NCBI RefSeq assembly: GCF_016595525.1 | Contig: NZ_JAENII010000012.1 | Span: 1 to 64,000 of the forward strand | Source of the DNA: Haloferula rosea | GTDB lineage: Bacteria > Verrucomicrobiota > Verrucomicrobiia > Verrucomicrobiales > Akkermansiaceae | DNA: 64,000 nt | Reading direction: 5' to 3' | Shown here: positions 797 through 21,016 of the stretch, in pieces | How positions within the stretch are numbered: the first letter of the stretch is position 1 | Layout of the letters: every line of letters starts with the position of its first letter | Notes under the pieces: generated by a model | Seen by the model: only the letters and a program-made list of their open reading frames with translations | Told to the model about the DNA's origin: nothing | The model's database searches: none | Program-made: the position numbers and the translations under genes

Positions 797-890
797 CTTG
801 TTGACGCCAAGGGGCCCATGCTGCCAACGCGAACAGCCCTACAAGCACGCCGACCATCCCCAGCACGACTATTTGGATCGCCTTGGTCAT
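750..890 (-). CDS. 46-residue single-helix membrane peptide
   Basis: The ATG at 890 overlaps the flippase stop codon as ATGA, a typical arrangement for translational coupling. The product has one transmembrane segment (about residues 5-26), then a short basic tail with a CKGC motif at the C terminus. Length and composition are compatible with a small membrane peptide made together with the flippase. No family is recognised, and with so few residues the coding call rests mainly on the ATGA overlap. Confidence 0.45.
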   Translation of the reverse strand: MTKAIQIVVLGMVGVLVGLFALAAWAPWRQQGASRAFGSVVCKGCG

Positions 891-3953: not shown

Positions 3954-6116
3954 TCAGTCGGAGGTTGCTTCAGAGATGGAAAGAGTGTGTTCCCCGCGGG
4001 CGGGAAGAGCGGTTCGTGGCGCGACAAGGCTCGGAGCGTCACCGGGGGAGGTCGGGTGCTCATTCCACACGAAACCCACCAGCTTGGCACCGCCACCCCG
4101 CAACATCTCGGCGGTCTGGCGAAGCTCTGTCGACTTGCTGCCACCCTCGCCGATCACCATGCAGGTCCGGTCCGCGTAGCGTGCCACGGCTTGAGCATCA
4201 CTCGTGCCAAGCACCGGCGGAGCATCAATGACAACCCGGTCGAACCAGCGATACGCTTCCTCCAGCAGGACCGGGAAGCGGGAACTTCCCAGAAGCTCGG
4301 AGGCATCCGCCTTCAGCTCACCGGAAGAAATCAGATAAAGGCCGGGAACGGGTGTGCGCACGCAGGTATCCGCGGCCGTCGCATTGCCCGCAAGCAGGTC
4401 GCTCAGACCGGTTGGCGTTTCCTTGAGCTGTTCGCGGCTCAGGCCGGGACTGCGGAGGTCCGCATCGATGAGCAGCGTGCGATGACCTTGCACCGCGAGA
4501 GAAACCGCGTGGTTCACCGCGCAGAAGGAAGCCCCCTCGCCCGCCCGGGCTCCGGTGAACATGATCGTTTGTGCCTTGGATTCGGCACTCGCAGGAATCA
4601 GGACGGAACGCAGTCGGCGGAACGCTTCAGCCGCAGCCGAGCTGGGCGAAGACAACAGGAGCATCCCTTCGGAAGCCCCGACGGCGGGGATCCGCGCCAA
4701 CAGGGGAACCCCGGTCGCGCGGCTGGCAGCCGCGGTGTCGCGGACGGTGCCACCTTTCAATTCCAGACCGGCCACGAGCATCAGACCCAGGCAAAGCCCG
4801 GCCATCCCGGCAATCGGGGTGAACAAGGCACGCTTCGGCTTCGATGCCTCCTCGGGCACCAGCGGCTGGTCACGCCAGCTCAGGACGGAAGCAGGAACCG
4901 AACCGGCAAGCATCGTCTCACGCAGGCGACGCGACACCGAGCCATGCAACTCGCGGTCGGCTTCCGCCTCGCGGCTCAAGGCGGCAAACTGCGCACGCAG
5001 ACCATCAACGTCCACCGCATCTCCGCTCGCGATCGCGACTTCATTCTCCAGCGCCTTCTCCTGGGCAAGCGCCACCTGGTAGCCCTTCTCCACGGCCTCA
5101 CCGGCGGTGATCATGGCAACCGCCAGATCTTCCTTCACGGACTCCACGTCACGTGCCGCCCGCTTGTAGTCCGGGTGCTTGAAAAGATAGCGCTCCTTGA
5201 CGCGATCAAACTCGAGTTCCTTCTCCCGCAGATCGCGCACCAGTGAAAGCACCTCCGCCCCGTGATCACTCCGGCGCAGTCCCGCCAGCGCGTCCGGGTT
5301 GTCGGCGTCGAACTTCGCGAAGGCATCGCGCTCGGCTTCCAACTCCATCCGGCTGGTCTTCGCTTCGGTGAGTCGCTCGCTCAGAATGCCCAGCCGATCG
5401 CGCGCGGATCCCGTGGCACGGATTCCCTCCAAACCGGGAACCGGATGCTCTTCGCGGAATGCCTGAAGCTTCTCCTCGGACAACTCCATGCGCTTGCGCA
5501 ATCGGCCTTCCTCGTTGGCCAGGCCGATGCTGACTTCCTCGATGAGGGCGGTCTGACGCTCGGCGCTCCACGTCTCATACTCCGACTTGATCGAAGCCAC
5601 CAGGTCGCGGGCCCGGACCGGATCGGTATCCTCGACCCAGATGTCGATGTAGCGGGAACCCCGGCGGAGTTCGACGCCGACACGGTCCGCCAGCTCTCCA
5701 AGTACGCCCTGACGGGTCTTGGCCTCCGGCGCGAAAGTGGGATCACCGACGAGCTGATGCTTGTCGATCACCCGCAGCAACAGCGTGTTCGAGAGCATCC
5801 CCTGCTCCACCGAGTGCATGCTCTCGAGGTCTTCGGAATCCTCGTCGGTCATCTCCTGGACCTCGAAGAAATTCACGGTATCCGCACTGACATAGACCGA
5901 TCCCGAGGACTGATAGATCTTCGGCATCCGGCCCATCGCGAACCATGTGGCGACGGCGGCAAGCACCATCAGCAGGATGGCAATCCAGCCGTGGCGAACC
6001 AGCGCACCGAGGAAACGGGGAAGCTCGGCCTTGGGAAGGTAGAAGGTCGGATCCGAAGTCGGCGCGCCAAGCTCTTGGCGGCCCTCCTGCTCCGATTTGA
6101 TGATGGGGGAACTCAT
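3954..6116 (-). CDS. Wzc-like polysaccharide co-polymerase with degenerate BY-kinase domain
   Basis: 720 residues. A Wzz-type N-terminal domain has a first membrane helix (about 40-60), a periplasmic region rich in coiled coil (about 170-400) and a second helix near 440-460. A cytoplasmic BY-kinase/CpsD-like domain follows (about 500-690). Walker A' (LLIDADLRSPG) and Walker B (VVIDAPPVLG) are clear, but the Walker A loop reads GARAGEGASF, with Ala529 where the family has lysine. The C terminus has no tyrosine cluster. Wzc proteins control chain length and couple synthesis to Wza. This one probably keeps the structural role while nucleotide binding or autophosphorylation is weakened or lost. 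It lies 36 bp after the export gene. Confidence 0.88.
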   Translation of the reverse strand: MSSPIIKSEQEGRQELGAPTSDPTFYLPKAELPRFLGALVRHGWIAILLMVLAAVATWFAMGRMPKIYQSSGSVYVSADTVNFFEVQEMTDEDSEDLESMHSVEQGMLSNTLLLRVIDKHQLVGDPTFAPEAKTRQGVLGELADRVGVELRRGSRYIDIWVEDTDPVRARDLVASIKSEYETWSAERQTALIEEVSIGLANEEGRLRKRMELSEEKLQAFREEHPVPGLEGIRATGSARDRLGILSERLTEAKTSRMELEAERDAFAKFDADNPDALAGLRRSDHGAEVLSLVRDLREKELEFDRVKERYLFKHPDYKRAARDVESVKEDLAVAMITAGEAVEKGYQVALAQEKALENEVAIASGDAVDVDGLRAQFAALSREAEADRELHGSVSRRLRETMLAGSVPASVLSWRDQPLVPEEASKPKRALFTPIAGMAGLCLGLMLVAGLELKGGTVRDTAAASRATGVPLLARIPAVGASEGMLLLSSPSSAAAEAFRRLRSVLIPASAESKAQTIMFTGARAGEGASFCAVNHAVSLAVQGHRTLLIDADLRSPGLSREQLKETPTGLSDLLAGNATAADTCVRTPVPGLYLISSGELKADASELLGSSRFPVLLEEAYRWFDRVVIDAPPVLGTSDAQAVARYADRTCMVIGEGGSKSTELRQTAEMLRGGGAKLVGFVWNEHPTSPGDAPSLVAPRTALPARGEHTLSISEATSD

Positions 6117-6152: not shown

Positions 6153-6713
6153 TTAGAACAAGCTCTCGGGGATCGTGATGATGTCTCCGTCCTGCAGGGG
6201 GATGTCCTTCGCCTTGCCGGCCGTGATGGCCCGCAGGTCGATGCGGATCGGATTCTCCAGATTGCGACGCTTGAGGGTGATCTTCTTCGCATTCCCGATC
6301 CGCGTCACACCGCCTGCCAGGCCGATGGCCTCCACCAGTGTGAGCTTGCGGTTCGGATCGAGACGGAAGAGCCCCGGCTTCTGCGCCTCGCCCAGGACAG
6401 TGACCGTCTTGCGCACCCGCGCCGTGATCGAGACGGTGACTTCAGGGCGCACGAGGTAGCCGTCACGGAGCTTGCGCTCGATCAGGTTGGCAGCAGCATC
6501 CGTCGACATTCCCGCCACCTTCACCGTGCCGATCAATGGCATGTCGATGGTGCCGGAAGCCGATAACTGACCGCGGGTGGTCAGGTCGTCCTCGCGGAAG
6601 ACGCGGATCTCGATGCTGTCGCGGCTACCGATGGTGCCGGATCCACGCTCGCCTTGGGCAGCCGCGGGAAGAAGCGCAATCAGACTGAAGATGATGGAAA
6701 GGATGGTTTTCAT
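6153..6713 (-). CDS. Polysaccharide export protein, short Wza-like (Poly_export/SLBB)
   Basis: 186 residues with a signal peptide (MKTILSIIFSLIALLPAAAQ) but no lipobox cysteine. The mature part contains a polysaccharide-export domain (about 28-105, with GTIDMPLIGTVKVAG) and one SLBB domain (about 108-180, TVLGEAQKPGLFRLDPNRKL). This is about half the length of Wza and lacks its C-terminal outer-membrane helix. It therefore probably forms a periplasmic ring and relies on a separate outer-membrane pore. The adjacent beta-barrel gene, 16 bp upstream, is the obvious partner. Confidence 0.9.
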   Translation of the reverse strand: MKTILSIIFSLIALLPAAAQGERGSGTIGSRDSIEIRVFREDDLTTRGQLSASGTIDMPLIGTVKVAGMSTDAAANLIERKLRDGYLVRPEVTVSITARVRKTVTVLGEAQKPGLFRLDPNRKLTLVEAIGLAGGVTRIGNAKKITLKRRNLENPIRIDLRAITAGKAKDIPLQDGDIITIPESLF

Positions 6714-6729: not shown

Positions 6730-7998
6730 TCAGAAGTCGTAGGTCATGTCGACTCCGATCTGGTTCTGCTTGTATCCGAAGGTGGGGCCACTCGAATCGT
6801 TCTTCTCGTAGCGGTAGAAGACACTGGCCCGGAACTGATCAGTCAGCTGATACTCCAGGCTTGGTCGGAGATAGAAAATGTTGTCCTTGCGCCGCGCTGG
6901 AGTGAATCCAGTCACACGCTTGTAGCGGTTGCTCTCGAATCCAAGCTCCAGCTGCCCGGTCCAGCGGGACCCGAAGCGCTGCGCCACACCGATGCCGACT
7001 CCTGAGACTTCGATGTTCTGCCCGGGGAACGAAGCGGAACTCTCTTCGCGGCGATAGGCCGTCAGATAAACTCCGGTGGCCTCACGCAGCTGCCAATCGA
7101 CACGCGCGTCGAGGACCGGATACAGGTCGGATCCGGTTTCATAATTGCGATGCTCCACGCCGGCCTCGATGTCGACGGACCATTTCTGTCTGGGACGCCA
7201 GATCAGCCGGGCGGTCGCCCGATTGACATCCTGGGTACCTCCGGGGTCCACCTTGTCGCGCCCGAACCTCCATGCTGCTCCGATCTCGGTCTTGGGCGAA
7301 TACGCATAGCGCACGGCCAATTCACCGTAGGTCCGATCCGAATCGGAAAACCTGCTTTCATCGTAATCCTCACCGGAAAGTCCCGCGGCCACTTCAAGCT
7401 TCACCTTCTCACGCGGGCGCCAGACGTAGCGGACTTCGCCGAGATACTCGGTGCGCTCGGTCGTCGTTCCCGTGTCGGGGGTGGCGTCGCCGAGTCTGCG
7501 CACGACCGTCGACACGCCCAGCTCATGGCGTCGCCCGACCACTCCCGCCTGCAACTCGAAGTCCTGGTCGATCCGGCTCTCGTCGGAATTCTCCGCGAAC
7601 AGCACACCGCTCGGGCGATACACCAGGCGCACGTAGCAACCGGGATCATCCGGACGACCGAAGGCGTAGGCAATGCGTGGCGTGATCTGCAGCACGAGGT
7701 CGGATTGCGGACGGTTCGCGCTGAGGAAAATGTTGTCGTCATAGGCGACGCGGAGCGCCAGCCCGAGATCCCAGCCTTCCTCGGTCAGCGGGGCTTGTTC
7801 ATCGCGTGGAGCCAGCCCCGTCCCGGCATCCAGGGCATCATCGATCCGCTCCGACTCCGCACCGGGCTCTGCGAACTCCACGGCGTCCGCCCCTTCCAGC
7901 GGGATGTACTCAACCGGCGACGGCTCGCTGGCCACAGCAAGGCGGCAAGCGAGTATCGTGGCCAGAAGGCCAAGGGGGGCTGGTTTGATGGGAGTCAT
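6730..7998 (-). CDS. Outer-membrane beta-barrel protein of the EPS cluster
   Basis: 422 residues with a signal peptide (about 1-23), an acidic linker (about 24-70), then many alternating amphipathic strands ending in a C-terminal phenylalanine (GVDMTYDF), as expected for outer-membrane barrels. It resembles the beta-barrel proteins found beside polysaccharide-export genes of Verrucomicrobiota and Proteobacteria. It sits between the megasynthase gene, 71 bp upstream, and the short export protein, 16 bp downstream. I infer that it forms or supports the outer-membrane exit for the polymer. The exact family name is not certain. Confidence 0.78.
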   Translation of the reverse strand: MTPIKPAPLGLLATILACRLAVASEPSPVEYIPLEGADAVEFAEPGAESERIDDALDAGTGLAPRDEQAPLTEEGWDLGLALRVAYDDNIFLSANRPQSDLVLQITPRIAYAFGRPDDPGCYVRLVYRPSGVLFAENSDESRIDQDFELQAGVVGRRHELGVSTVVRRLGDATPDTGTTTERTEYLGEVRYVWRPREKVKLEVAAGLSGEDYDESRFSDSDRTYGELAVRYAYSPKTEIGAAWRFGRDKVDPGGTQDVNRATARLIWRPRQKWSVDIEAGVEHRNYETGSDLYPVLDARVDWQLREATGVYLTAYRREESSASFPGQNIEVSGVGIGVAQRFGSRWTGQLELGFESNRYKRVTGFTPARRKDNIFYLRPSLEYQLTDQFRASVFYRYEKNDSSGPTFGYKQNQIGVDMTYDF

Positions 7999-8069: not shown

Positions 8070-11000
8070 CTACTGGCGAAATGAATCGGGGTTTACAAGG
8101 GGAGAACCATGGGATGGCGACGACGGACCGGCCTCAAGACTCTCCTTGAGTGCTTGGGAAACATGGCCAGCGAGAGGGCCGACATGGCCGCTGTCGAAGA
8201 GTGTCAGGTGCTCACCGGGCACTTCCACGACCTTCAACTCGTCCACCCGGTCGGACCAACCGTAGTCATCCGGGATCTCGAACTTGTCGTTCACCGCATC
8301 CGCGCGGAACAGGTTGAGCGTGCCGTGGAACGGGCCGGGTTGGTAGGCGTCCATGGCAGCTTCGTGAGCCTCCCGGAGTTGGACGGCACGAAGCTCGGTG
8401 TGGGCTTCAGCCGCCGCGCTCCTCTGCGCCTCAGCCACTTCGGCCTTCACCTTGATGTGGGTTTCCACCCCATCCTTGAAGCGACCGGCCAGGCGAGTGA
8501 TCCGCTCGGAGAGCGACAAATTGCTACTAGCATTCCAGTAAACCGAAACCCGTTCACTCAAGGCATAGGGACGGATTTCCGTTGCCGGATTCAGCGTGTC
8601 GAACAAGCCGAGGAACGGCACCGACTCGCCCGCCTCGGTCAACTGCCTGGCCATCTCGTAGGCCACCACACCGCCGTAGGAGTAACCCGCCAGCAGATAC
8701 GGGCCTTCGGGCTGACGAGCCCTCAGGATGGCGATGTAGTCCGCCGCCGTTTCTTCGATCGGCTTCACCTGGATCTCGTCGCTGTGTCCGAGTTCGGGTG
8801 ACTCGATCGCCACGAACGGGCGATCCTGCGGCAAGCGCTCGGCGAGCTGGCGATAGAAGAGAATGCCTCCGTCACCACCGTGAATTCCGCACAGCACCGG
8901 AGGACTCCCCTTCGGTTGCACTTCAGCAAGATGTCCATGGATCGTCGCCAAAGCCGAACCTCCGGAACCTCCCTCGATGGCCGTTGCCAGAGCACGGACG
9001 GAACGTGCCTTGAGCAAGGTGGCCAGCGGCAGGGACACGCCGAATTCCTTCTGGATCCGGGCGAACATCCTCAGGCCGGCAAGCGAGTTGCCCCCGAGTT
9101 CGAAGAAGTCCTGATCACGACCGGGCGAGGCAACCCCCAGAAGCTCACTCCAGATGGCGGCCAACCTGATCTCGGTTTCACCATCGGGCGCCTCGCGCTC
9201 TTCGGATTGGCGGACTTCGGGTTCAGGCAGTTTCTCCACCACCACCTTGCCGTTCGCATTCAGCGGCATCTCATCGATGGCCACGATCTGCTCGGGCAAC
9301 ATGAACCGTGGAACCCGCTGTGACAGCCAGGCACCCAGCTCGCTCTCGTCGAGTTGGCTTCCCTCGGCAGTCACATACCATGCCAGCAATCTCTTGTCGC
9401 CGGCACCACTGCCACGAACCACGGCCTTGGCCTGACTCACCGATGGATGCTCCACCAGCGCAGCCTCGAGTTCTCCAAGCTCGATGCGGAACCCACGCAG
9501 CTTCACCTGATGATCGCTGCGACCGACGAAGGAGATGGTGCCGTCCGCATTCCACACGCAGAGGTCACCGGTGAGATACATGGTGCCTTTCGATGTCTCG
9601 ACAAAACGCTCGGCAGTCAGATCCGGACGATTGAGATAGCCGAGGGCCAGCCCGGTTCCGCCACAGCGAAGCTCACCCGGCACTCCGACAGGCACCGGCT
9701 TGCCGTCTCGGTCCACGATCTCGACAAAAGTTCCCGGGACGACGCTGCCAATCGGGATCGGTGAGCCATCGAGATCGCTTTCACGCAGAGTGTGACAGGT
9801 CGTGAAGGTCGCATTCTCCGTGGGGCCATAGCCATTGATGAGGCGCGTATCAGGCAGACCCTCGAAGGCACGTTTCGCGTGAGGCGGCGAAATCACATCG
9901 CCCCCTGCAAGCAGCTGACGCAGACCCACCAGGTCTTCGAGGTGCTCCTCCACCATCAGCTCGAATAATCCAGCGGTAAGCCAAAGCGTGGTCACTCCAC
10001 GACTCTTGACCGTATTCGCAATTCCAGAAAGCGAGGTGTCTTCCGAGTCGAGTAGCACCAGACGTCCACCATTGAGCAAGGCGCCGAAGATCTCAAACAA
10101 GGACGCATCGAACGCCACCGTGGAAGCGAGAAGAAGCGTCTCATCAGCTCCGAGCTCGCAGAAGTCAGGTTGCTTGACCAAGCGAAGAACCCCCTGATGG
10201 GTGCCCACCACTCCTTTCGGCACGCCCGTGGAACCTGAGGTGAACATCACGTAGGCAGGATCCTCCGAACGACCCACCACGGCTTGCGGTGCTGCCGTCG
10301 GCGTCGATGCCGGGTTCAGCGTGCGGAAGCCATCCACCGGCTGACCGGAGACCACCAGCGAGACATCCGCTTCGGAAAGAATGGTCGTGCGACGGGTCGC
10401 AGGGAATTCGGGATCAATCGGCACGTAACACGCCCCCACTTCAAGAATGGCCAGGATGGAAGCCACCAGATCAGGGCTGCGTGGAAGCAGGATCCCGACT
10501 CGGTCTCCGGCTTTGGTGCCATGCTGACGAAGTCCTTCCGCGATGGCACTCACCCGCTCGGCCAACTGCCTGTAGGTGAAGGTTCCACCGTTCCAGACCA
10601 AGGCCTCACGATCTGCATGCGCAGCAACCGTTTGGCGGAAGTCCTCGCCGATCGAGCCGGTCGGATTCGACTCCGGCCCGTGGGACCATTGCTCGATCTG
10701 CTCGAGTCCGGCGCGGTCGAGGATCTCGAGGTCGGCCACCGACTGGTGCGGGTCTTCGGCCGCATCGAGGAGCAACTGGCTCAGCGATTCGAGCCAGCGT
10801 TTCATCGTGCCCTCATCGAGCAATTCGCAGTTGTAGGTCGACGACAGCAGGAGCCCGTCCGGCTGCTGCATCAGGTTGAGGAAAATCGTCGAGTTGCTGT
10901 AGCGGGCGGGCACGGTCTCAACCCGGGAAGTCAAGCCACCGAACTCACCCGGATCTCCCGAAGGCTCGAGGTTGAAGATCACTTCCATCATCGGGCGGCG

Positions 11001-14000
11001 ACCTCCCTCACGACCAAGCTTGAGGGCGCGAAGCAAGCGACCATAGGTCAGCTTGCCATGCTCCAGCGCATCCATCTGCGCGGCCGATGCATGCGAAACC
11101 AGATCCTTGAACGACTTTCCGGCATCCACCTTGGCAAGCAGTGGCAGGAAGTTCACGCAGTGACCCACCAGTTGCTCGTCACCGGCTTCCATCTGCCCGG
11201 CAGACGGGAAAGTCATGACGAACTCGTCCTGGTCACTCAGCTTGTGCAGCAATGCCTGGAAGCCGGCGAGAAGCGTGCTGTTCAGCGTTCCTCCACAGTC
11301 CCTCGCGAGCTTGCGCAGTCGATCGAACTTCTCCGCATCCAGCATGACCTCACAGGTCGACGAGGCGTAACTCGGTGAGGCGCCGTAGCCCTTCTTGAGC
11401 GGGAGTTCCACCTCGGGAACCCCTTCCTTGAAGACCTCCGTCCACCACTCGAGCGAGCTGTCCGCCATCTCGGAATCCTGACTCTCGCGCAGCGCTCGAT
11501 CCACGATCGATGGCGCCACCATCAAACTCTTCTTGCGACCTTGAAGCCGGGCTTCATAGCAGTGCGTGAAGTCCTCGATCAGCACTTCAAACGACCAGCC
11601 GTCGGCCGCGAGGTGATGGGCCACGAACTGCAGCACCACTTCCTCATCGGAAAGCTTTGCCATCACCACCCGGAACAGGGGGCCACGGGCGACATCAAAT
11701 GCCGTTTCGCGCTGCTGCAAACCGCACTCGATCAAAGCCGCCTCGGGGTCGGCTTCCGCACTGAGATCCTTCTCAATGACCGTCACTGGCTGATCCACAT
11801 CGATCACGAAAACCGCCGCGCGGTCGTCGGGAGCCCGCAGGCGCAGGGCATCGTGCCGATCCACCAGATCCTGGATTGCCAGCTTGGCGAGTTCGCCATT
11901 CACCGGACCGGTCAGACGCAGTTGCAGCATCTCGTTGAATGCCAGGTTTGCCTCGTCACCCAGCAGCGACGCCAGCCAGATCTCGGCCATGGGCTCGGTC
12001 ATCGGGAACGGCCCGCGCACGCCTTCACCTACGACGAGCGTCGTTTCCGGAAGCTGCGGCTGCGGCAGGAATCCACCATTCTGAAGCTCCTCGATCGACT
12101 CCCGAAATGCGCGGATCACGAAATCCACATCCTCATCCGTATGCGCTGCCGTCAGATAGAAGGGAAGACCTTCCATCGCGAAGACACCCCGCTTGCGCAG
12201 GTGGTAGAAGATCAGGTTGCCATGCTTGGCGTCATCGCCAATCCGCAGATACATCTGCGAGTTGAAGTTGACCATGGTGATGTCGATGCCCTGATCCTTG
12301 AACAGGCGGTCCACTGTCCGGACAAGACGGTCGGCACGTTCACCGATCCCCTGCCAGTAGTCGGCCGGCTGCGACTTGATGTGGTGGAGCACCGCACGAC
12401 AGGCAGCCATCGCCAGTGGGAGACGGACGAAGGTTCCGGCGAAGAAGGTCACATCCTTCTCCGGGAACGAATCATCGCCATACTGCCACTGACCACCGTC
12501 AAAGGTATCCATGTATTCGGCCTTGCCACCGACGATCCCGATGGGCAGAGCACCACCCCCGAAGACCTTGCCGTAGGTCGCGAGATCCGCTTCGATCCCA
12601 TAGAGCTCCTGCGCACCACGCGGCCCCTGACGGACACCCGTGATCACTTCATCGAAGACCAGGAGGAAGCCGTTCTCCTCACTGATCTTCTTCACTTCGC
12701 GAACGAAATCGATCGGGATCAGCTCAGGCTGGCGACTCTGGACCGGCTCCACGAGCACCGCGGCCAGTTCACCCGCCACCTCGCGGATCATGTCGAGGGC
12801 CTCGGGGCGACCCCATGGCACCACGATCACATCCTGCACGGCCGACTCCGGAATCCCGGGAGCCAGAGGCAGCGTGCGACGGCGCGCCCCCTTCCCCACG
12901 CTGCGCACGAGCACCGGGTCCATGTTGCCATGGTAGTCCTTGTCGAAGACGAGAATCTTGTCGCGTCCGGTCACCGTGCGGGAAATCCGCATCGCCGCCT
13001 GGACGGCCTCGGAACCGGTATTCAGGAAACAAACCCGCTCGTTGTTCGTCACTTCGCAGAACAACCTGGCGGTCTCCATCGCGACCTGACACTGCGGCCC
13101 AATCTCCAGACCGGTCGCAAGTTGTTCCTGAATGGCTTCCGTGACGAAGTCCGGCGAGTGCCCGAGGAAGTTCGGACCGAAGCCATTGACCATGTCGATG
13201 TACTCGTTTCCATCCACATCCCACATGCGGCATCCCTTCATCCGGGTCGCCACCACCTGATAGACCATCTCCTTCCACAGTCGGTTGAAGCCATTGACGG
13301 TCCGTGCATCGGCGAGCCACTTGCGGTGTTCCTGGGTCAGTTCCTTCGACTTGCGGGTCTTCTCACAGTAACTCTTCACCAGCGCATCGAGGTGCTCACG
13401 CTGCTGCACGGTGAGCTCATCGCCGGTGGACACCCGGTCGATCCGGGTCCGGGGACCCGCCACACCCGATTCTTCTTCCGGCTCGTTCGATGGCGCGACT
13501 TCCTCAGCCGCCGGAGTTGGAGCTACCGGCTTGGCGGCCGCACCCGATACCTCAACGGTCGAGTTTGCCTCAAGGTGCTTCACCAGCTCCTCGAGGTTCG
13601 GATAGTTCTGCATCAGGTCGCGGAATGCGATCGGCACTCCGAAGCTCTTCTGCAATTCGCGGGCCGCCTGCGTCAGCAGTAGCGAGTCGAAGCCCATCTC
13701 GAGGAAAGTCGATTGAAGCCCCATCTCGTCGGCCGGAATCCCCGACAGGTTCTCCAGCACTTCACGGATGCGTGCGAGCAAGCCGACGGGAGCCGCTTCT
13801 TCGACGACCTCCGGGGTCTCCACCTGCTGGGATACCGCAGCGACGGCCCCACGGACCGGAAGCGGACGATCCAACAACTGGCATTCAAGCCACGCACGCC
13901 GACGCTGGAACGGGTACGTTGGAAGCGGCACACGCTGAGCGGATGCATCACCATGCACCACCGACCAATCGACCTCGACTCCGCGAGCCCACAGGTCGCC

Positions 14001-17000
14001 GAGGGATTGCAGCATGCGGGCGCCATCCGGAGCACCGCTGGCAGGGTGCTCACAGGTCGGCACACAGGCTTTGGCACGACGTCCGGCCGTCTGACGAGCC
14101 AAGGTCGTCAGGGTCTGACCCGGACCGACCTCAAGATAGATCCGACCTTCCGCAAGACTCGCGGCAGCCTCGATGGCACCATGGAAATTCACGGTTTCCC
14201 GCAGATGCCCGGCCCAGTAGCCCGGGTCGGTGGCTTGCGCCTCGTCGAGCAATCCGCCGGTGACGGTCGAGAGGATGCTCATCTTCGGAGCATGAAGGTC
14301 CACACGTTCGATGACCTCGCGGAACTTCGCCACCACCGAATCCATCATGCGGCTGTGGAATGCATGCGACGTGTGCAGCTCGCGCACATTGACCCCGTCC
14401 GCTTCGAGCTGTTGGGCGAATGCGGCGACAGCGGCAGTCTCGCCTGCGACAACACAAAGCTCCGGCCCATTGATCGCGGCAAGATCCAGCTCGGCGGGAA
14501 GCCGCTCGCGGAGAGCATCCGCGGCGAGCCGCACCGACAACATCGAGCCGCCGGGCACCTCGCCCATCAGCTTTCCTCGCTCGGCGAGAATCCGTAGTCC
14601 GTCCTCGATCGAGAACACTCCGGCAAGGCAGGCCGCGGTGAACTCACCCACGCTGTGGCCGACCATGACATCCGGCCGGACACCCCAGCGGGCCCATTGT
14701 CTGGCGAGCGCCCACTCGACCACGAAGATCGCAGGCTGTGCGAGCACGGTGTGCTTGAGGCGTTCCGCCGCATCTCCGCCATCTTCGGCAAACAGCACTT
14801 CGCGCAGGTCCTCACCAAGCAGGGGCCGGAGAAACTCGGAACAGAAATCGATGTCGTGACGATAGCCGGCTTGAGACTGATAGAGATCCGCCGTCATCCC
14901 CGGGTGCTGGGCTCCCTGACCGGGGAACATCCACACCTGCTCGGGTGCCACACCCGCCGCTTCCAACTTCTGCAGTCGGCCGGCGCCAAGCTTTTCGGCA
15001 AGTGACTTCCAGTCATGCGCCACCACCGAGGCACGTTGACCCATCGCCTTGCGTCCCATCGACATGGTGCGCGCGGCTGCGGCAAAATCGATGCCATCCG
15101 CTTGCCCGGCAAAGGTCGCGAGTTTCGCAGCCAGTTGATCGACCGCTTCATCGGTGCGCCCGGAAAGCACCCAGAGGCGGTCACCTTCGACCTGGGAGCG
15201 AGGAGTCACATCCCGCGGGGCTTCCTCGACCACCACGTGGACGTTGGTGCCTCCCACGCCGAACGAGCTCACGCCCGCACGCCTTGGCGCCTCACCCGTG
15301 CTCTTCCATTCGCGCAGCCGGTCATTGACGAAGAACGGGGAGTTGGAGAAATCGATCCGCGGATTTGGTTTCTCAAAGTGAAGCACCGCCGGAAGCTCCC
15401 CCTTCTCCAGGGACATCGCGGTCTTGATCAGGCCACACACACCGGCAGCGGTGTCGAGGTGACCCAGGTTTGATTTCAGTGATCCGATCGCACAGAACCC
15501 GGTATCCGTCGTACTTGCGCGGAAGGCCTGGGTCAGACCAGTGACCTCGATCGGGTCGCCCAACGGCGTGGCCGTGCCATGGGCCTCGACATAGCTGATC
15601 GTGCGCGCATCCACGCCGGCATCACGATGCGCCCGACGGATGGCATCCGCCTGTCCCTCGACGCTTGGAGCCGCGTAGCTGTGCTTCACGCCACCGTCAT
15701 TGTTCATGCCGAAGCCTCGCACGACGGCATGGATGTGATCGCCATCGCGCACCGCATCATCCAGGCGCTTCAGGAGAACGCAGCCAGCCCCGTTGCTGAA
15801 CACCGTGCCGGAGCTCTCGGCATCAAAGGGTCGGCAACGACCGTCCTTGGAAAGCATCCCGCCTTCCTCGTGATGGTAACCCCGCTTCTGCGGCACCGTG
15901 ACTGTCACTCCGCCGGCGAGCGCCATGTCGCACTGACCCGTCCGCAGCGCCATCGCCGCGTGGGCCACCGCCACCAGCGAGCTCGAACATGCCGTCTGCA
16001 CGGTCAGGCTCGGCCCTTTCAGATTCAGTTTGAAGGCCACCCGTGTCGCCAGGTGATCCTTGTCATTGCCGAACTCCACCGACAGGGCGCCCACCTGCGC
16101 CTCCGCCAGGTGACGGCGGTGGTATTCAGGGTCCGAGAGAATGTGGTGCGGGAGATAAGTGTCGTAGTAACAACCGGCATAGATGCCGATGCGGCCACCG
16201 TCCTTCTCCGCGTCGTCGGGCACGTAGCCACCCCGCTCAAGTGCTTCCCAGCAAAGCTCGAGGAAGACGCGCTGCTGCGGATCGATCATCTCGGCCTCGC
16301 GTGGCAGGATGCCGAACAAGCCGCCATCCAGACCTTCATAAACCTCGGGATCCAGCAAGCCACGGGCGCACACGAAGTCCGGATCGTTGTCCGGCACCGG
16401 CACATCCGCATCGGCGGGATCGAAGTGCGTGATCGAGTTCTTCCCTTCGCGCAGATTTTCCCACAACTCCTCGGGAGATGACGCGTCGGGGAGACGCAGC
16501 GACATGCCGACGATGGCCAGCGCCTCGCCCGATCCTTCGGACGAGGCCGCGGCCTCGACCACCGGCTGCGAGGACGGCTGATCGGCCGAAACCAATCCAG
16601 CCTGAGCCGAGACGGTCGGATTCTCGAACATCCGGACGAGTTCGAATCGCACGCCGAACTCGCGCTGCATGCGGGCGTGCACGCGGACGAGCTGGATCGA
16701 TGAACCACCAAGGTCGACGAACCGATCCGAGCGACCCACTTCCTCCAGACCGAGAACCTCAGCCCAGATTCCAGCGATTCTGGTTTCCACATCACCCTGG
16801 GGAGCGACCATGCGCTCGCTGAGGTCCGGGCGCGGCTGCAGCGGTGGGCTTGCCCACTTCATCACTGCCGGAACCGAGTGCAATTCATGGGCAATCCGTC
16901 CGATCAGGTCCGGATCCGCCAAGGGCGTGGTGACTTCATCCACGGAACGATCGGATCGTGCCGCGATCGGCAAAAGCGCACAGTTGGCGGCGACTTCCGC

Positions 17001-18602
17001 AGGGATGACCCGGACACCGTTGTCCCAGCTGCCGGGGATACTCTCAAGGAACTCAAGCACCGGCTGGTTGCGACCGGTGTCGTTGAACCAGATCGCCACC
17101 TCCGTAAGCTGGAGTTGGGCAGCCAGCTCACCGAGGTAGCGCAGCATGCGCTGCTCGACCCCTTTGCCCAGAGCCCGACAACTGAGAAGGAAGGTTTCGG
17201 CCCAAAGCCGCCCGCTGTCCTCGCGCGTGCACATCAGACCCACGGAGCCATAGTCGCCGAATCGGTCGCTCACCTTGACCAGCTGGGCACGCATCCCGCG
17301 GCAGGCCTGCATCAGGGCCGCCTCATCGCGCGGTTGCGGGCAGGCATTGAACTGGTTCGTGCGCTGGGTCAGCTGGCTTGCCCGGGCCAGATCATCATCC
17401 GCCACCGGGACGATCTCCATCCTAAGCTCAAGCCCTTCGATGAACGACTCATAGCTGGATGCCCGCTCACGCAGATCGAGCCGACGCGCCTCATCATGGT
17501 AGAAATCCGCACGGCGTGTATCCTCCTCCGAACCATGCGCGCGGTCGAGCGCCCACAGATGACGGACGAAGCGAGGCAACTCGGAGACATCCTCGGGAAT
17601 ACGCAGTGAAAGGACCGCCGGAGCATTCGCTTCGACCTCGGCCACCTCCGCCGGGTTATCATCGAGGAAGACGAAGCTGTCCAAGCCCAGATTCAACCGC
17701 TCGGACAAGCGTCGCAAATTGGACGACTTCGGGTCCCAGTTGATCATTCCCGCCACGAAGGCATCGCGCGTGATCACCATGCCTGCATTCTCACGGAACA
17801 CGGCTTCCACATCCTCAGGATGATTCTTCGAAACGAGGCAAAGCAGGTAACCCTCGGCCCGGCGTGCCAGCAGGAACTCCTGAAAGGCACGTCGTGGTCC
17901 ATCGACCACGACTCCCGTGGGGCCTGCTTCCCCGCAAACCCCGGTCCAGAGCGTGTGATCGCAATCCACCGCAATTACCTTGTACGGCTTCCGTCGTAGA
18001 GCGAGCATCCGCCGGGCGATCATCGTTCCGATCGCCGCGAACATCTCCTCGCTGAAAGGAACGCATGCCGCGGCCTCAGCCTCCGCATCGAAGACCCGGG
18101 CGACCGGATACGCCTCCATCCATTCGGTCACGGCAAGAAGTTCGACGCCTGCCACGCCCTCGACCTGCTCACGCAAATCGGCGAGGAAGGTGGCTTCGAC
18201 TTCCGCTCCGTCGGCTGCCGGACAAACCACCACCAGAGTCTGCGAACCATCGCGGTTCGATGCCTCCGCAAGGGCGGCCCCCACTTCGCGGGCTGCCGAG
18301 CGGGCGCGCGCCGGCGAGTCCGCCGAAAGATCGCACGCCCGGGCAAGAACGACGTTCACGCCACCACGGTGACTGGCGAGCAGACTGCCCGGATCGAGCA
18401 GTTGCTGAAGCACCTGATGGTAAGGGGCGAACTGAACATCGGGCGCGAATCCGAATTCACGAAGCCACGACTCGAGCACCGCCTGCAACGGTTCAGCGGT
18501 GAAGGTCGCCGAAAGGCGCACCGTCATTGGGGACAAAGAGGATGTCATTGGGACTGGGGGAACAGCTTGGGGATCCACCATGGGTGTGATGGACGGTGCC
18601 AT
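8070..18602 (-). CDS. Hybrid PKS/NRPS megasynthase: FkbH-ACP-KS-AT-ACP-AMT-C-A-PCP-TE
   Basis: About 3510 residues, counted from the ATG at 18602 (a TTG at 18611 and later ATGs are possible). Domains in order: FkbH/HAD-IIIC glyceryl loader (DCDHTLW from Asp213, followed by GVCGE); ACP1 (LGGSS, Ser635); KS (TACSSS Cys872, His1008, His1048); AT (GHSVGE Ser1317, HAFH at 1413, the malonyl signature); ACP2 (GFDS, Ser1640); class III PLP aminotransferase (YGKVFGGG, Lys2012); condensation (HHLAADG, His2329-Asp2334); adenylation (FTSGSTGVPKG from 2787, NGK Lys3119); PCP (LGGNS, Ser3173); thioesterase (GYSYGG Ser3308, PGEH His3465). There is no KR, DH or ER. Every catalytic motif checked is present. 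Inferred product: a 3-amino-4,5-dihydroxypentanoyl unit coupled to one amino acid. It is co-directional with the EPS genes downstream. Confidence 0.93.
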   Translation of the reverse strand: MAPSITPMVDPQAVPPVPMTSSLSPMTVRLSATFTAEPLQAVLESWLREFGFAPDVQFAPYHQVLQQLLDPGSLLASHRGGVNVVLARACDLSADSPARARSAAREVGAALAEASNRDGSQTLVVVCPAADGAEVEATFLADLREQVEGVAGVELLAVTEWMEAYPVARVFDAEAEAAACVPFSEEMFAAIGTMIARRMLALRRKPYKVIAVDCDHTLWTGVCGEAGPTGVVVDGPRRAFQEFLLARRAEGYLLCLVSKNHPEDVEAVFRENAGMVITRDAFVAGMINWDPKSSNLRRLSERLNLGLDSFVFLDDNPAEVAEVEANAPAVLSLRIPEDVSELPRFVRHLWALDRAHGSEEDTRRADFYHDEARRLDLRERASSYESFIEGLELRMEIVPVADDDLARASQLTQRTNQFNACPQPRDEAALMQACRGMRAQLVKVSDRFGDYGSVGLMCTREDSGRLWAETFLLSCRALGKGVEQRMLRYLGELAAQLQLTEVAIWFNDTGRNQPVLEFLESIPGSWDNGVRVIPAEVAANCALLPIAARSDRSVDEVTTPLADPDLIGRIAHELHSVPAVMKWASPPLQPRPDLSERMVAPQGDVETRIAGIWAEVLGLEEVGRSDRFVDLGGSSIQLVRVHARMQREFGVRFELVRMFENPTVSAQAGLVSADQPSSQPVVEAAASSEGSGEALAIVGMSLRLPDASSPEELWENLREGKNSITHFDPADADVPVPDNDPDFVCARGLLDPEVYEGLDGGLFGILPREAEMIDPQQRVFLELCWEALERGGYVPDDAEKDGGRIGIYAGCYYDTYLPHHILSDPEYHRRHLAEAQVGALSVEFGNDKDHLATRVAFKLNLKGPSLTVQTACSSSLVAVAHAAMALRTGQCDMALAGGVTVTVPQKRGYHHEEGGMLSKDGRCRPFDAESSGTVFSNGAGCVLLKRLDDAVRDGDHIHAVVRGFGMNNDGGVKHSYAAPSVEGQADAIRRAHRDAGVDARTISYVEAHGTATPLGDPIEVTGLTQAFRASTTDTGFCAIGSLKSNLGHLDTAAGVCGLIKTAMSLEKGELPAVLHFEKPNPRIDFSNSPFFVNDRLREWKSTGEAPRRAGVSSFGVGGTNVHVVVEEAPRDVTPRSQVEGDRLWVLSGRTDEAVDQLAAKLATFAGQADGIDFAAAARTMSMGRKAMGQRASVVAHDWKSLAEKLGAGRLQKLEAAGVAPEQVWMFPGQGAQHPGMTADLYQSQAGYRHDIDFCSEFLRPLLGEDLREVLFAEDGGDAAERLKHTVLAQPAIFVVEWALARQWARWGVRPDVMVGHSVGEFTAACLAGVFSIEDGLRILAERGKLMGEVPGGSMLSVRLAADALRERLPAELDLAAINGPELCVVAGETAAVAAFAQQLEADGVNVRELHTSHAFHSRMMDSVVAKFREVIERVDLHAPKMSILSTVTGGLLDEAQATDPGYWAGHLRETVNFHGAIEAAASLAEGRIYLEVGPGQTLTTLARQTAGRRAKACVPTCEHPASGAPDGARMLQSLGDLWARGVEVDWSVVHGDASAQRVPLPTYPFQRRRAWLECQLLDRPLPVRGAVAAVSQQVETPEVVEEAAPVGLLARIREVLENLSGIPADEMGLQSTFLEMGFDSLLLTQAARELQKSFGVPIAFRDLMQNYPNLEELVKHLEANSTVEVSGAAAKPVAPTPAAEEVAPSNEPEEESGVAGPRTRIDRVSTGDELTVQQREHLDALVKSYCEKTRKSKELTQEHRKWLADARTVNGFNRLWKEMVYQVVATRMKGCRMWDVDGNEYIDMVNGFGPNFLGHSPDFVTEAIQEQLATGLEIGPQCQVAMETARLFCEVTNNERVCFLNTGSEAVQAAMRISRTVTGRDKILVFDKDYHGNMDPVLVRSVGKGARRRTLPLAPGIPESAVQDVIVVPWGRPEALDMIREVAGELAAVLVEPVQSRQPELIPIDFVREVKKISEENGFLLVFDEVITGVRQGPRGAQELYGIEADLATYGKVFGGGALPIGIVGGKAEYMDTFDGGQWQYGDDSFPEKDVTFFAGTFVRLPLAMAACRAVLHHIKSQPADYWQGIGERADRLVRTVDRLFKDQGIDITMVNFNSQMYLRIGDDAKHGNLIFYHLRKRGVFAMEGLPFYLTAAHTDEDVDFVIRAFRESIEELQNGGFLPQPQLPETTLVVGEGVRGPFPMTEPMAEIWLASLLGDEANLAFNEMLQLRLTGPVNGELAKLAIQDLVDRHDALRLRAPDDRAAVFVIDVDQPVTVIEKDLSAEADPEAALIECGLQQRETAFDVARGPLFRVVMAKLSDEEVVLQFVAHHLAADGWSFEVLIEDFTHCYEARLQGRKKSLMVAPSIVDRALRESQDSEMADSSLEWWTEVFKEGVPEVELPLKKGYGASPSYASSTCEVMLDAEKFDRLRKLARDCGGTLNSTLLAGFQALLHKLSDQDEFVMTFPSAGQMEAGDEQLVGHCVNFLPLLAKVDAGKSFKDLVSHASAAQMDALEHGKLTYGRLLRALKLGREGGRRPMMEVIFNLEPSGDPGEFGGLTSRVETVPARYSNSTIFLNLMQQPDGLLLSSTYNCELLDEGTMKRWLESLSQLLLDAAEDPHQSVADLEILDRAGLEQIEQWSHGPESNPTGSIGEDFRQTVAAHADREALVWNGGTFTYRQLAERVSAIAEGLRQHGTKAGDRVGILLPRSPDLVASILAILEVGACYVPIDPEFPATRRTTILSEADVSLVVSGQPVDGFRTLNPASTPTAAPQAVVGRSEDPAYVMFTSGSTGVPKGVVGTHQGVLRLVKQPDFCELGADETLLLASTVAFDASLFEIFGALLNGGRLVLLDSEDTSLSGIANTVKSRGVTTLWLTAGLFELMVEEHLEDLVGLRQLLAGGDVISPPHAKRAFEGLPDTRLINGYGPTENATFTTCHTLRESDLDGSPIPIGSVVPGTFVEIVDRDGKPVPVGVPGELRCGGTGLALGYLNRPDLTAERFVETSKGTMYLTGDLCVWNADGTISFVGRSDHQVKLRGFRIELGELEAALVEHPSVSQAKAVVRGSGAGDKRLLAWYVTAEGSQLDESELGAWLSQRVPRFMLPEQIVAIDEMPLNANGKVVVEKLPEPEVRQSEEREAPDGETEIRLAAIWSELLGVASPGRDQDFFELGGNSLAGLRMFARIQKEFGVSLPLATLLKARSVRALATAIEGGSGGSALATIHGHLAEVQPKGSPPVLCGIHGGDGGILFYRQLAERLPQDRPFVAIESPELGHSDEIQVKPIEETAADYIAILRARQPEGPYLLAGYSYGGVVAYEMARQLTEAGESVPFLGLFDTLNPATEIRPYALSERVSVYWNASSNLSLSERITRLAGRFKDGVETHIKVKAEVAEAQRSAAAEAHTELRAVQLREAHEAAMDAYQPGPFHGTLNLFRADAVNDKFEIPDDYGWSDRVDELKVVEVPGEHLTLFDSGHVGPLAGHVSQALKESLEAGPSSPSHGSPLVNPDSFRQ

Positions 18603-18898
18603 CCTAACCAAAATATTTTAAAAAACAAGACTATCGACAACCCTGAATCCAACACCATATCAACAAACAACTATCTGGAATTCAGTGATTTATGAATACG
18701 TAGATTACCGACCCACGCGATCCCGTAGGGCGCTCAATTGGGGCAATCGGAGCCCTTTTGCTCCCCCATAACGCTGGCCTCCGGACTCCATTTTCAAAAT
18801 TTCCGCAACACCCGTTCGGAGCGGGCAAACCCGGCCCCCTCCCCTTGCTGCACCTTCTTCGTGACACCGCTTGCGCTTGCCGCTCAGAGTTTCAAGGC
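18603..18898. promoter_or_regulatory. Divergent AT-rich control region of megasynthase and PPTase genes
   Basis: This 296-bp gap is far richer in A and T than its surroundings on the megasynthase side. Reading leftwards, a TTGTCG element and an AATATT/TATTTT element lie just before the ATG at 18602, a weak -35/-10 candidate. The half next to the PPTase gene is GC-rich, with no clear promoter box. No gene is seen here. The assignment is positional, and the promoter boxes are eyeballed. Confidence 0.45.
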
Positions 18899-19549
18899 AT
18901 GGCCGACATTCAACTGCATCTCATCGATCCCACCAAGATCGACGCCGCTTGGGCGAGATCAGTCCTGAGCATCGACGAGAAGGCACGCGCCGATCGATTC
19001 GTGTTTCCAGACGATGCCCGTCGCTGGACCTGCGTCCGGGCCGAGTGCCGACGTCACTTGGCCGCACATCTCGACATCCCCATCGACGAGATCACCTGGG
19101 AATATGGAGCCTACGAAAAGCCATCCATCACCGGCCACCCCCTGGCCTTCAACCTGAGCCACAGCAAATCCCTGTCCGCTCTCGCCATCGCCACGAAGGG
19201 CCCGCTCGGGGTGGATCTCGAACCCGAAGCGCGCGGCGAGGATCTGGTGGCCGACCTGCATGCGTTCTGCCACCCCGAGGAAATCGCCCGGCTTCCGGAT
19301 CTCGGCAGAGCCAGGGCCTTGATCGAATTGTGGACGGCCAAGGAGGCTTTCCTCAAAGCCCTTGGCACCGGACTTTCCCAACCACCCGAGCAGGTGAGTG
19401 TGGATGGGCGCACTGCCCGAGGCCCTGTCCCCGGCTTGGCAGCCCTCCATTTGATCCGTCCCCGCCATCCGGCTCTCCGTCACCACGCACTCGCCATCGC
19501 GGCCCCCGTCGAACTCGGCGAAGTGGAGGTGCTTCACCACCACGAGTGA
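18899..19549 (+). CDS. Sfp-type 4'-phosphopantetheinyl transferase
   Basis: 216 residues from the ATG at 18899. It carries the family motifs GVDLEP (about 103-108, Mg-binding acidic residues) and WTAKEAFLKALGTG (about 145-158), plus the FNLSHS segment. The enzyme moves 4'-phosphopantetheine from CoA to the serine of carrier domains, turning apo-ACP/PCP into holo forms. The three carrier domains of the divergent megasynthase (Ser635, Ser1640, Ser3173) are the likely substrates. A longer in-frame reading from 18758 has no family similarity at its N terminus. Confidence 0.9.
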   Translation: MADIQLHLIDPTKIDAAWARSVLSIDEKARADRFVFPDDARRWTCVRAECRRHLAAHLDIPIDEITWEYGAYEKPSITGHPLAFNLSHSKSLSALAIATKGPLGVDLEPEARGEDLVADLHAFCHPEEIARLPDLGRARALIELWTAKEAFLKALGTGLSQPPEQVSVDGRTARGPVPGLAALHLIRPRHPALRHHALAIAAPVELGEVEVLHHHE

Positions 19550-19594
19550 AGGTCGACATGCCGGTGGCCCTGTGGCAACTTGATGCGCACCCTC

Positions 19595-21016
19595 ATGGAC
19601 ATCATCCAGTTCCATTGCCCCGCTTGCCGCACCCTTCTTCGAGTGCCACCCGCCGCCGCTGGGTTCCAAGGTCCCTGCCCGGCCTGCCAACGCGAGATCG
19701 TCGGCCCCGTTCCGGCAAAGGGTCTGGAAGCACGCCTTGCCCCTGAAGACGCCTTCACCCCATTTCCGGGCAGCCCCATCCCGGCGCCTCCCTCGGAACC
19801 AGAGCCGACTCCCCCGGCCAGCGAACCAACGCCCGAGCCAGAGCCGGAACTTCACCAGCCGCCTCAACCGCAACCCCAGTCGGAGCCCGGGCCGGAACTC
19901 CCGCGGAAGGACGATACGCCTCCCTTCCCCACTGCTGAAGAGCCCGAACCCTTCAGACCATTCTCCGACACGCCGGATGACCTCGCTCCTCCTGAAAATT
20001 CGAGCGAACCGATCACGTCAGAGCCCGCACTTCCTCAATCGGACAGTGGCGAGCCTGCTTCCCCACAGGTCCCCACCGAATGCCTCGCACCGAAGTCCGT
20101 GCGTCGACTGCGTGCCGCCGTCCTGATTCTTTCCTGCCTGCTTTGTTCGGTCATCAGCTACGTCTTTGGCTACGTGATGGCACAGAAATCACGCAGCTTC
20201 GCCCCGCCGATCTTCGCGGATCCGGCCGCCATCCTCGATAGCCCCGGAGTCCCCGAGGAACGCACCGAGACTCCACCGCCCGACCTCCCCGAGCTGCCCG
20301 ACGACACTCCGTCCGAGGCCGACCTTGATGCCGACCCTCCGGAAATCGACCTGTCCGGCACCCCTGAATCCACCTCACCGGCTCCAGCGGCACGTGCCAC
20401 ACTCGACGCCTTCCTCAGCGCACCCGACTGGGCCAGCCGCAGTGCCTACGTCCTCGCCGCAGATGAAGTCCGCGCCGACATGAAGGCCCACGCCGAAGAA
20501 TTCGGCGACGGCCCGATTGATACGACCGGGATCGAGCCCGCCTATGCCTTCCCCGACCAAGAGCACTTCATCGTCCGCACGGAAACCATTCCCACCGGCT
20601 TTCCCGTCACGCTTCAAAAGATCGGCACGGACTGGCGCGTCGACTGGCAGGTCTTCCACGAGTTCCACGGCGACCTTTTCCGCCGGTTCGCATCCGGGAA
20701 ACTCGGAGCCACCGGTGAGTTCCACCTCTACCTGCGACCTCACGCCAAGCAGGACGCCAATGGCTTCACCCGCTATCAACTGACCGCCCCGATCGAAGGG
20801 CGCAGCTACCCTGCCTTCGGCAAACGGGGCAGCATGGCTCAGGCGAAAATCACCGCCTTGCTGGACAGCGAGGAATTCCGCAGCAACCCCGACATCCAGG
20901 AACTCCTCGACAAGGACGGAGTGCCGCTCGTGCTGAAGCTCAGCTACCAGTCGCGCGGCCAAGATCAGAACTTCCTCCTGATCGAGGACCTCGTCGCCCA
21001 GGGCTGGGGCCGCTGA
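19595..21016 (+). CDS. Zinc-ribbon, proline-rich single-pass membrane protein
   Basis: 473 residues from the ATG at 19595, chosen because the protein opens directly into a zinc ribbon (FHCPACRTLL then CPACQRE). TTG 19580 and ATG 19583 are alternatives. A long Pro/Glu/Ser-rich linker (about 50-170) leads to one membrane helix (about 178-200), another acidic Pro-rich linker, and a C-terminal globular domain of about 200 residues with an FHEFHGDLFRRFASGKLG stretch. This layout is common in Verrucomicrobiota proteins without assigned function. Its TGA abuts the xylB stop on the other strand with no base between. Confidence 0.8.
   Translation: MDIIQFHCPACRTLLRVPPAAAGFQGPCPACQREIVGPVPAKGLEARLAPEDAFTPFPGSPIPAPPSEPEPTPPASEPTPEPEPELHQPPQPQPQSEPGPELPRKDDTPPFPTAEEPEPFRPFSDTPDDLAPPENSSEPITSEPALPQSDSGEPASPQVPTECLAPKSVRRLRAAVLILSCLLCSVISYVFGYVMAQKSRSFAPPIFADPAAILDSPGVPEERTETPPPDLPELPDDTPSEADLDADPPEIDLSGTPESTSPAPAARATLDAFLSAPDWASRSAYVLAADEVRADMKAHAEEFGDGPIDTTGIEPAYAFPDQEHFIVRTETIPTGFPVTLQKIGTDWRVDWQVFHEFHGDLFRRFASGKLGATGEFHLYLRPHAKQDANGFTRYQLTAPIEGRSYPAFGKRGSMAQAKITALLDSEEFRSNPDIQELLDKDGVPLVLKLSYQSRGQDQNFLLIEDLVAQGWGR

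Follow-up and report, generated by a model that had tools for sequence, protein, structure and literature searches.

What does a bacterium make with one gene that joins an FkbH-type loading domain, a PKS module, an aminotransferase and an NRPS module, and does such a gene act alone? The question is raised by a locus of Haloferula rosea in a 64,000-nucleotide stretch of DNA (the window), where an earlier note had described a single self-contained gene for a glycerate-primed beta-amino acid dipeptide. We infer the substrates, amino donor, product and polymer link of this enzyme, and at roughly even odds (about 0.5) we read it as a glycerate-primed beta-amino-acyl-valine synthase that would work with a Wza/Wzc-type polysaccharide. 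The window is the start of its contig, which begins at base 1, in a genome of 4.68 Mb and 69 contigs.

Domain organization of the synthase

The synthase, its domains in order of translation and the gene beside it are as follows.

8070-18602, minus strand: one-protein PKS-NRPS, FkbH-ACP-KS-AT-ACP-AMT-C-A-PCP-TE (Pfam, NCBIfam, motifs)
17034-17981, minus strand: FkbH domain, with HAD phosphatase part and GNAT-like part (TIGR01686; structure model and fold search)
16572-16805, minus strand: ACP1, presumed glyceryl carrier (carrier matches; DLGGSSI motif)
15372-16523, minus strand: KS (Pfam, motifs)
14082-14936, minus strand: AT, malonyl-type HAFH (Pfam, motif)
13572-13772, minus strand: ACP2 (PP-binding; EMGFDSL motif)
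12084-13301, minus strand: AMT, class-III aminotransferase, MycA-like (Pfam/NCBIfam; 6kfm, E 2e-123; PLP lysine)
10698-11981, minus strand: condensation domain (Pfam; HHLAADG)
9246-10640, minus strand: adenylation domain, code DAFWLGGTF, presumably valine-like (Pfam, TIGR01733, code)
8973-9179, minus strand: PCP (third PP-binding stretch; ELGGNSL)
8481-8894, minus strand: thioesterase, best Pfam stretch of a domain that extends towards the stop (PF00975; GYSYGG and His)
18899-19549, plus strand, divergent from and adjacent to the synthase: Sfp-type phosphopantetheinyl transferase (PF01648; NCBIfam 4PPT matches below their cut-offs)

The open frame runs on the minus strand from a TTG at 18611 through an ATG at 18602 to the stop at 8070 and encodes about 3,510 amino acids. 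Counted in residues from the TTG, profiles match FkbH (TIGR01686) at 211-526, KS at 697-1080, AT at 1226-1510 and Aminotran_3 at 1785-2094, followed in the C-terminal half by C at 2211-2638, A at 2658-3122 and TE at 3240-3377; three PP-binding stretches are matched as well. The order given by Pfam and NCBIfam is the one that had been read from the letters, and every domain named then is recovered by profile search, including FkbH at 276.4 bits against a cut-off of 146.65. The absence of KR and DH also holds, as neither profile matches the synthase.

The catalytic motifs that were checked, previously described as intact, were all found, those of the KS and the aminotransferase included, and none is broken. 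The PKS portion has the features of a type I module: the Cys/His/His residues of the KS, the GHSVG and HAFH motifs of the AT (the latter confirming the malonyl signature claimed before) and the ACP serine. The KS cysteine stands in TACSTS or SACSTS in aligned relatives. The aminotransferase claimed in the PKS line is placed as in MycA, with the Aminotran_3 match between the PKS ACP and the NRPS C domain and the PLP lysine present. The NRPS portion carries C HHxxxDG, motifs A3, A5 and A10, the PCP serine, and the GYSYGG serine and the histidine of the TE, while DxDxT, SKN, DD and SCR are present in the FkbH domain. All three carrier serines are in place. Judged from these sequence features, the gene is best explained as coding for a functional PKS-NRPS in one protein.

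The possibility of a chance or broken frame was considered and is ruled out by the intact motifs together with conservation in relatives, because 16 of the 19 long synthases compared carry all domains from FkbH to TE, in that order, in a single frame of 3.4-3.9 kaa. The exceptions are two synthases without a TE (G031 and G184) and one divided into two genes with extra NRPS domains (G032). In G035 and G058 the line is divided over two frames.

The Sfp-type gene noted earlier beside the synthase accounts for one of the genome's two PF01648 matches. It adjoins a gene for a 478-residue protein (19580-21016, plus strand) that has no Pfam match and whose relatives in five genomes of the genus are likewise neighbors of Sfp. 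Scans for promoters and terminators gave no signal above shuffled sequences. Beyond the Sfp-type gene and the omega-amidase-like and export genes described below, a first comparison of the surroundings of the synthase revealed no neighboring set of tailoring enzymes common to more than five genomes.

Starter unit, amino acid and predicted product

The bit score of the FkbH domain places it in family TIGR01686, and its motifs are strongly conserved: both aspartates of the HAD DxD motif and the DD motif are invariant in 31 of 31 aligned rows, and SKN in 22 of 22. Equally invariant (31 of 31) is the cysteine of the SCR motif near the C-terminal end of the region, which may hand on the glyceryl group. 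A model of the FkbH region and the N-terminal part, built with 31 sequences, has a pLDDT of 91.8. Its best solved match in a fold search is 3slr, a Bacteroides protein with an HAD phosphatase domain, followed by MDP-1 (HAD) and many GNAT acetyltransferases, and the region therefore combines a phosphatase fold with a GNAT-like transferase fold.

By analogy, this domain would place a glyceryl starter on ACP1. An alternative for this role is another FkbH unit such as lactate, which would lead to 3-amino-4-hydroxypentanoyl-valine. Lactyl-loading FkbH domains exist, as in BryA of the bryostatin pathway, and sequence alone cannot tell glyceryl from lactyl here. However, three sources describe the FkbH unit as glyceryl, which is loaded on carriers in the vioprolide, cystomanamide and corramycin lines (PMC10099666, PMC8949500) and feeds tetronates elsewhere (PMC7489565). 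We regard a lactate starter as unlikely and retain glyceryl in what follows.

The adenylation domain has the code DAFWLGGTF; the tenth letter, K, was supplied by the script and not taken from the sequence. Known codes include DAFWIGGTFK for valine and DILQLGLIWK for glycine, and we take DAFWLGGTF to be a valine code, so that the amino acid activated is probably valine. A code was obtained for 16 of the 19 long FkbH-type synthases, the search pattern giving none for G032, G039 and G088, and D[AI][FLM]W[LIV]G[GA]TF fits 14 of these 16. The two exceptions are the TE-less relatives G031 (locus L052) and G184 (locus L056), whose codes differ from the valine type. G184 also has alterations in the KS histidine (EANGT), the AT (GCGVGE, no HAFH) and the PLP lysine, and this copy therefore looks decayed or mis-assembled. 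In two other relatives, L048 (G091) and L050 (G088), the TE nucleophile is cysteine (GYCFGG) instead of serine, and the AT has HGFH instead of HAFH.

Colinearity combined with the valine code thus predicts (3-amino-4,5-dihydroxypentanoyl)-valine as the product. The proposal of a glycerate-primed dipeptide stands in so far as profiles, motifs and homologues support an FkbH starter, one amino acid and release by the TE; the glyceryl identity and the dipeptide itself draw on knowledge of the families, and the amino acid can now be specified as probable valine.

A different outcome would result if the gamma-hydroxyl attacked the thioester before condensation, yielding a tetronate or a 3-amino-gamma-lactone and leaving C-A-PCP-TE to a slow or side reaction. 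A 3-oxo-4-hydroxyacyl thioester could in chemical terms close to a five-membered ring, and FkbH units do feed tetronates in other systems (PMC7489565). Against this, no motif of C, A, PCP or TE is broken in the window, and most relatives retain them, which argues that the dipeptide step is under selection. Early cyclization therefore seems very improbable, and the dipeptide remains the product that we favor.

Neighboring genes and relatives

Downstream of the synthase, five genes follow on the same strand.

6730-7998, minus strand: outer-membrane beta-barrel, BBP2_2, TIGR03016-like (profile matches)
6153-6713, minus strand: Wza-type polysaccharide export protein (PF02563/SLBB)
3954-6116, minus strand: Wzc-type chain-length/tyrosine autokinase protein (profile matches)
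2330-3838, minus strand: WcaJ-like polyprenyl-phosphate sugar-phosphate transferase (PF02397; TIGR03025 above cut-off)
887-2215, minus strand: Wzx-like flippase, Polysacc_synt (PF01943; no NCBIfam match)

The barrel gene begins only 71 bp past the synthase. Wza, Wzc, an initiating transferase and Wzx, the combination by which a Wzx/Wzy locus is recognized, thus occur together in the window. No glycosyltransferase or Wzy was recognized in the window's part of the operon, where the contig starts at base 1, nor did we recognize a candidate enzyme for linking the product to a sugar. In G120 the gene directly after Wzx was read by eye as UvrC, with no glycosyltransferase or Wzy in that place, while two Pfam glycosyltransferases follow the cassette at L176 and similar genes, identified by eye, lie near it in G094. 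The same order of synthase, barrel, Wza, Wzc and transferase is present in the window, G120, G183, G247, G094 and L076 (with no Wzx match in G247), and in G104, G222 and G032 the barrel-Wza-Wzc genes lie divergently on the opposite side of the synthase. Luteolibacter pohnpeiensis KCTC 22041 and Haloferula luteola YC6886 are among the strains that have both the synthase and the cassette.

The association extends to synthases with a different starter. Among the 12 genomes of the window's genus (the Luteolibacter/Haloferula group) that were searched, five have the FkbH line, and six of the other seven have an AMT line lacking FkbH within 10 kb of Wza. The starter of these lines was read in four of the six (all except G114 and G143) and is an A domain in each case (G064, G100, G265 and L141, the record of G154). 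The remaining congener, G123, matched neither the N-terminal nor the AMT query at the thresholds applied. In G100 the final gene of the A-starter line is followed by one (L155, 16974-17882) for a 303-residue protein matched by neither Pfam nor NCBIfam, and relatives of this protein likewise follow the line in G064 and G265. These arrangements indicate that in its genus the synthase heads an exopolysaccharide export operon, with which it would be co-transcribed. The description of the synthase as a single self-contained gene is therefore not upheld, the more so since an omega-amidase-like gene precedes it in many relatives.

Proximity of Wza (PF02563) to the AMT was counted in 85 genomes, which are not a random sample. 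In a first set of 61, including hand-picked genomes, some of them chosen because Wza showed in the locus, 21 have Wza within 10 kb (0.97 expected). A further 24, added as an offset, contribute one within 10 kb and three within 30 kb (0.36 and 1.03 expected). Combined, the two sets give 22 genomes with Wza within 10 kb (about 1.3 expected) and 36 with Wza within 30 kb (about 3.8 expected). These expectations assume random placement and, because they ignore kinship and the hand-picking of part of the first set, overstate independence. Excluded were G295 (a copy of G154), G240 (contig ending inside the synthase), and G231 and G123 (without an AMT match at the threshold). G320 and G322, with no clear starter, enter the total only, and second AMT copies of G300, G320, G339 and G340 were not counted. 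The qualitative pattern, in which several arrangements and two synthase groups occur beside the same kind of cassette, is a stronger argument than the counts.

These data bear on a rival view, that the product is a stand-alone secreted small molecule (a siderophore, signal or antibiotic) and the export genes are mere neighbors or are co-regulated for surface or biofilm life. Wza is missing within 10 kb in 63 of the 85 genomes and within 30 kb in 49, partly since contigs end, and a free acid is the ordinary outcome of a C-terminal thioesterase. However, the excess of Wza within 10 kb, the recurrence of the same cassette kind beside two synthase clades and the position of the gene at the head of the operon, with the barrel gene only 71 bp further on, all speak against this view. 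Such a molecule is possible, if somewhat doubtful. Since the synthase heads a Wza/Wzc/Wzx operon, its product most likely serves the exopolysaccharide instead of acting as a stand-alone antibiotic, and the recurrent adjacency suggests that the synthase and export pathways work together.

The second recurrent neighbor is a carbon-nitrogen hydrolase of 257 residues (PF00795). The best of its nine NCBIfam matches is PRK10438, the YafV omega-amidase, at 176.7 bits compared to a cut-off of 249, and we therefore call it omega-amidase-like only. In 11 of 22 FkbH-type genomes its gene immediately precedes the synthase gene in the same orientation, the two matches being 24-123 bp apart; in another five it is located elsewhere (E 1e-52 or better). 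Roseibacillus persicicus is among the species with such an omega-amidase-like protein. In three of those five genomes (G019, G101 and G130) a divergent barrel-Wza-Wzc cassette lies beside the hydrolase gene, including a transferase and Wzx in G101 and G130; the synthase of these three is on another contig, the contigs being short or the genes near contig ends. An Sfp-type gene stands beside the omega-amidase-like gene in G019, and a gene for a SerA-type phosphoglycerate dehydrogenase lies next to these two (L174, 12656-14248); the substrate expected for FkbH is closely related to 3-phosphoglycerate. G019 (L069) and G130 (L070) each encode a further FkbH-containing megasynthase, different from the first and about 2,950 residues long. 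At E 1e-12 nothing omega-amidase-like is matched in the window genome. Together with four other genomes of the genus and G094 it makes up the group of six closest to the window, and in those five the hydrolase has only distant relatives.

The nearest solved structure to the AMT in the PDB set is mycosubtilin synthase subunit A, MycA (6kfm, E 2e-123), whose amino donor is reported as glutamine (PMC3870968). With this precedent and the omega-amidase-like neighbor in relatives, glutamine is probably the donor here. The by-product would therefore be 2-oxoglutaramate, whose hydrolysis would pull the reaction, and the omega-amidase-like gene suggests glutamine-dependent amination with disposal of this compound.

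The distribution of the synthase was surveyed in two ways. A query with its N-terminal 704 residues found matches at E 1e-20 or better in 63 of the order's 288 genomes, in many cases to short FkbH proteins. Scanning genomes of 84,980 species with the AMT alignment yielded 278 relatives, and 80 of these loci were retained. The resulting tree has 80 rows, comprising 79 of these loci (L096 was left out as incomplete) and the window. By the labelling used, 25 rows have FkbH starters and 36 have A-domain starters, 14 are truncated at contig ends and five are ambiguous. FkbH starters are absent from one main group, to which the lines of Haloferula BvORR071 and Luteolibacter marinus belong; the other, which includes the window, mixes FkbH and A starters. 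The tree requires at least three starter changes. By aminotransferase, the nearest named relatives of the window are from Luteolibacter, Haloferula and a Verrucomicrobiaceae. FkbH lines outside Verrucomicrobia (Parvularculaceae, Neomegalonema, a gammaproteobacterium and Bryobacteraceae) are encoded in shorter frames or contain additional C and A domains; among the relatives examined, the one-gene form is thus seen only in Verrucomicrobia.

Proposed pathway and comparison with known systems

In the pathway that we favor, FkbH would take a glyceryl group from 1,3-bisphosphoglycerate to ACP1, and the KS and AT would add malonyl to give 3-oxo-4,5-dihydroxypentanoyl-ACP2. The MycA-type AMT, probably with glutamine, would convert this to 3-amino-4,5-dihydroxypentanoyl-ACP2, in many relatives pulled forward by an upstream omega-amidase-like enzyme that destroys 2-oxoglutaramate. 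The C domain would join the 3-amino-4,5-dihydroxypentanoyl unit to valine on the PCP, and the TE would free 3-amino-4,5-dihydroxypentanoyl-valine or its lactone or lactam. This compound might serve the exopolysaccharide as a substituent, a building block or a co-produced matrix molecule.

A broader and tentative proposal, which we hold to be rather unlikely as a whole, is that exopolysaccharides of Verrucomicrobia, Acidobacteria and Alphaproteobacteria carry or contain beta-amino-acyl peptides from PKS-AMT-NRPS lines, with glycerate (by FkbH) or an amino acid as starter and an omega-amidase driving amination in some lineages. If so, assembly-line chemistry and Wza/Wzc polymer export would form one pathway. 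If the product is bound to polymer, some bacterial slimes would carry non-ribosomal peptide parts, and their gene clusters would be misread as sources of free antibiotics. The omega-amidase-like neighbor offers a simple prediction on how PKS transamination is driven. The stronger point is that PKS-AMT-NRPS lines are recurrently paired with polysaccharide export genes in several phyla.

Each domain of the synthase is of a known type. In the open-access literature searched we recognized no FkbH-KS-AMT line, no complete single chain in which a glyceryl starter is passed to an aminotransferase, and no PKS-NRPS joined to Wza/Wzc. The closest parallel is MycA/ItuA, the A subunits of mycosubtilin and iturin synthases, which are PKS-AMT-NRPS proteins with the same kind of AMT. 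MycA has the same KS-AT-ACP-AMT-C order but is primed by a fatty acid, whereas the window line is primed by an FkbH module and ends with one A-PCP-TE in the same chain. The vioprolide, cystomanamide and corramycin lines likewise have FkbH load glyceryl on a carrier within an assembly line. The glyceryl enters an NRPS module there, behind a fatty acyl unit in vioprolide and corramycin; in the window line, glyceryl would instead be a PKS starter that is extended with malonate and aminated.

The export genes resemble Wzx/Wzy exopolysaccharide loci of the XrtA/PEP-CTERM-like kind in their barrel, Wza, Wzc, polyprenyl-phosphate sugar transferase and Wzx, and differ in having a PKS-NRPS at the head and no recognized glycosyltransferase or Wzy in the window's part. 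The relatives recall the glutamine transaminase/omega-amidase pair (YafV-like) by placing an aminotransferase expected to use glutamine beside a PRK10438-like hydrolase. Here, however, the aminotransferase is a megasynthase domain, and the hydrolase scores under the PRK10438 cut-off and is absent from the window genome. What is new, then, is that such a line is paired with genes for polysaccharide export and, in relatives, also with one for an omega-amidase-like enzyme.
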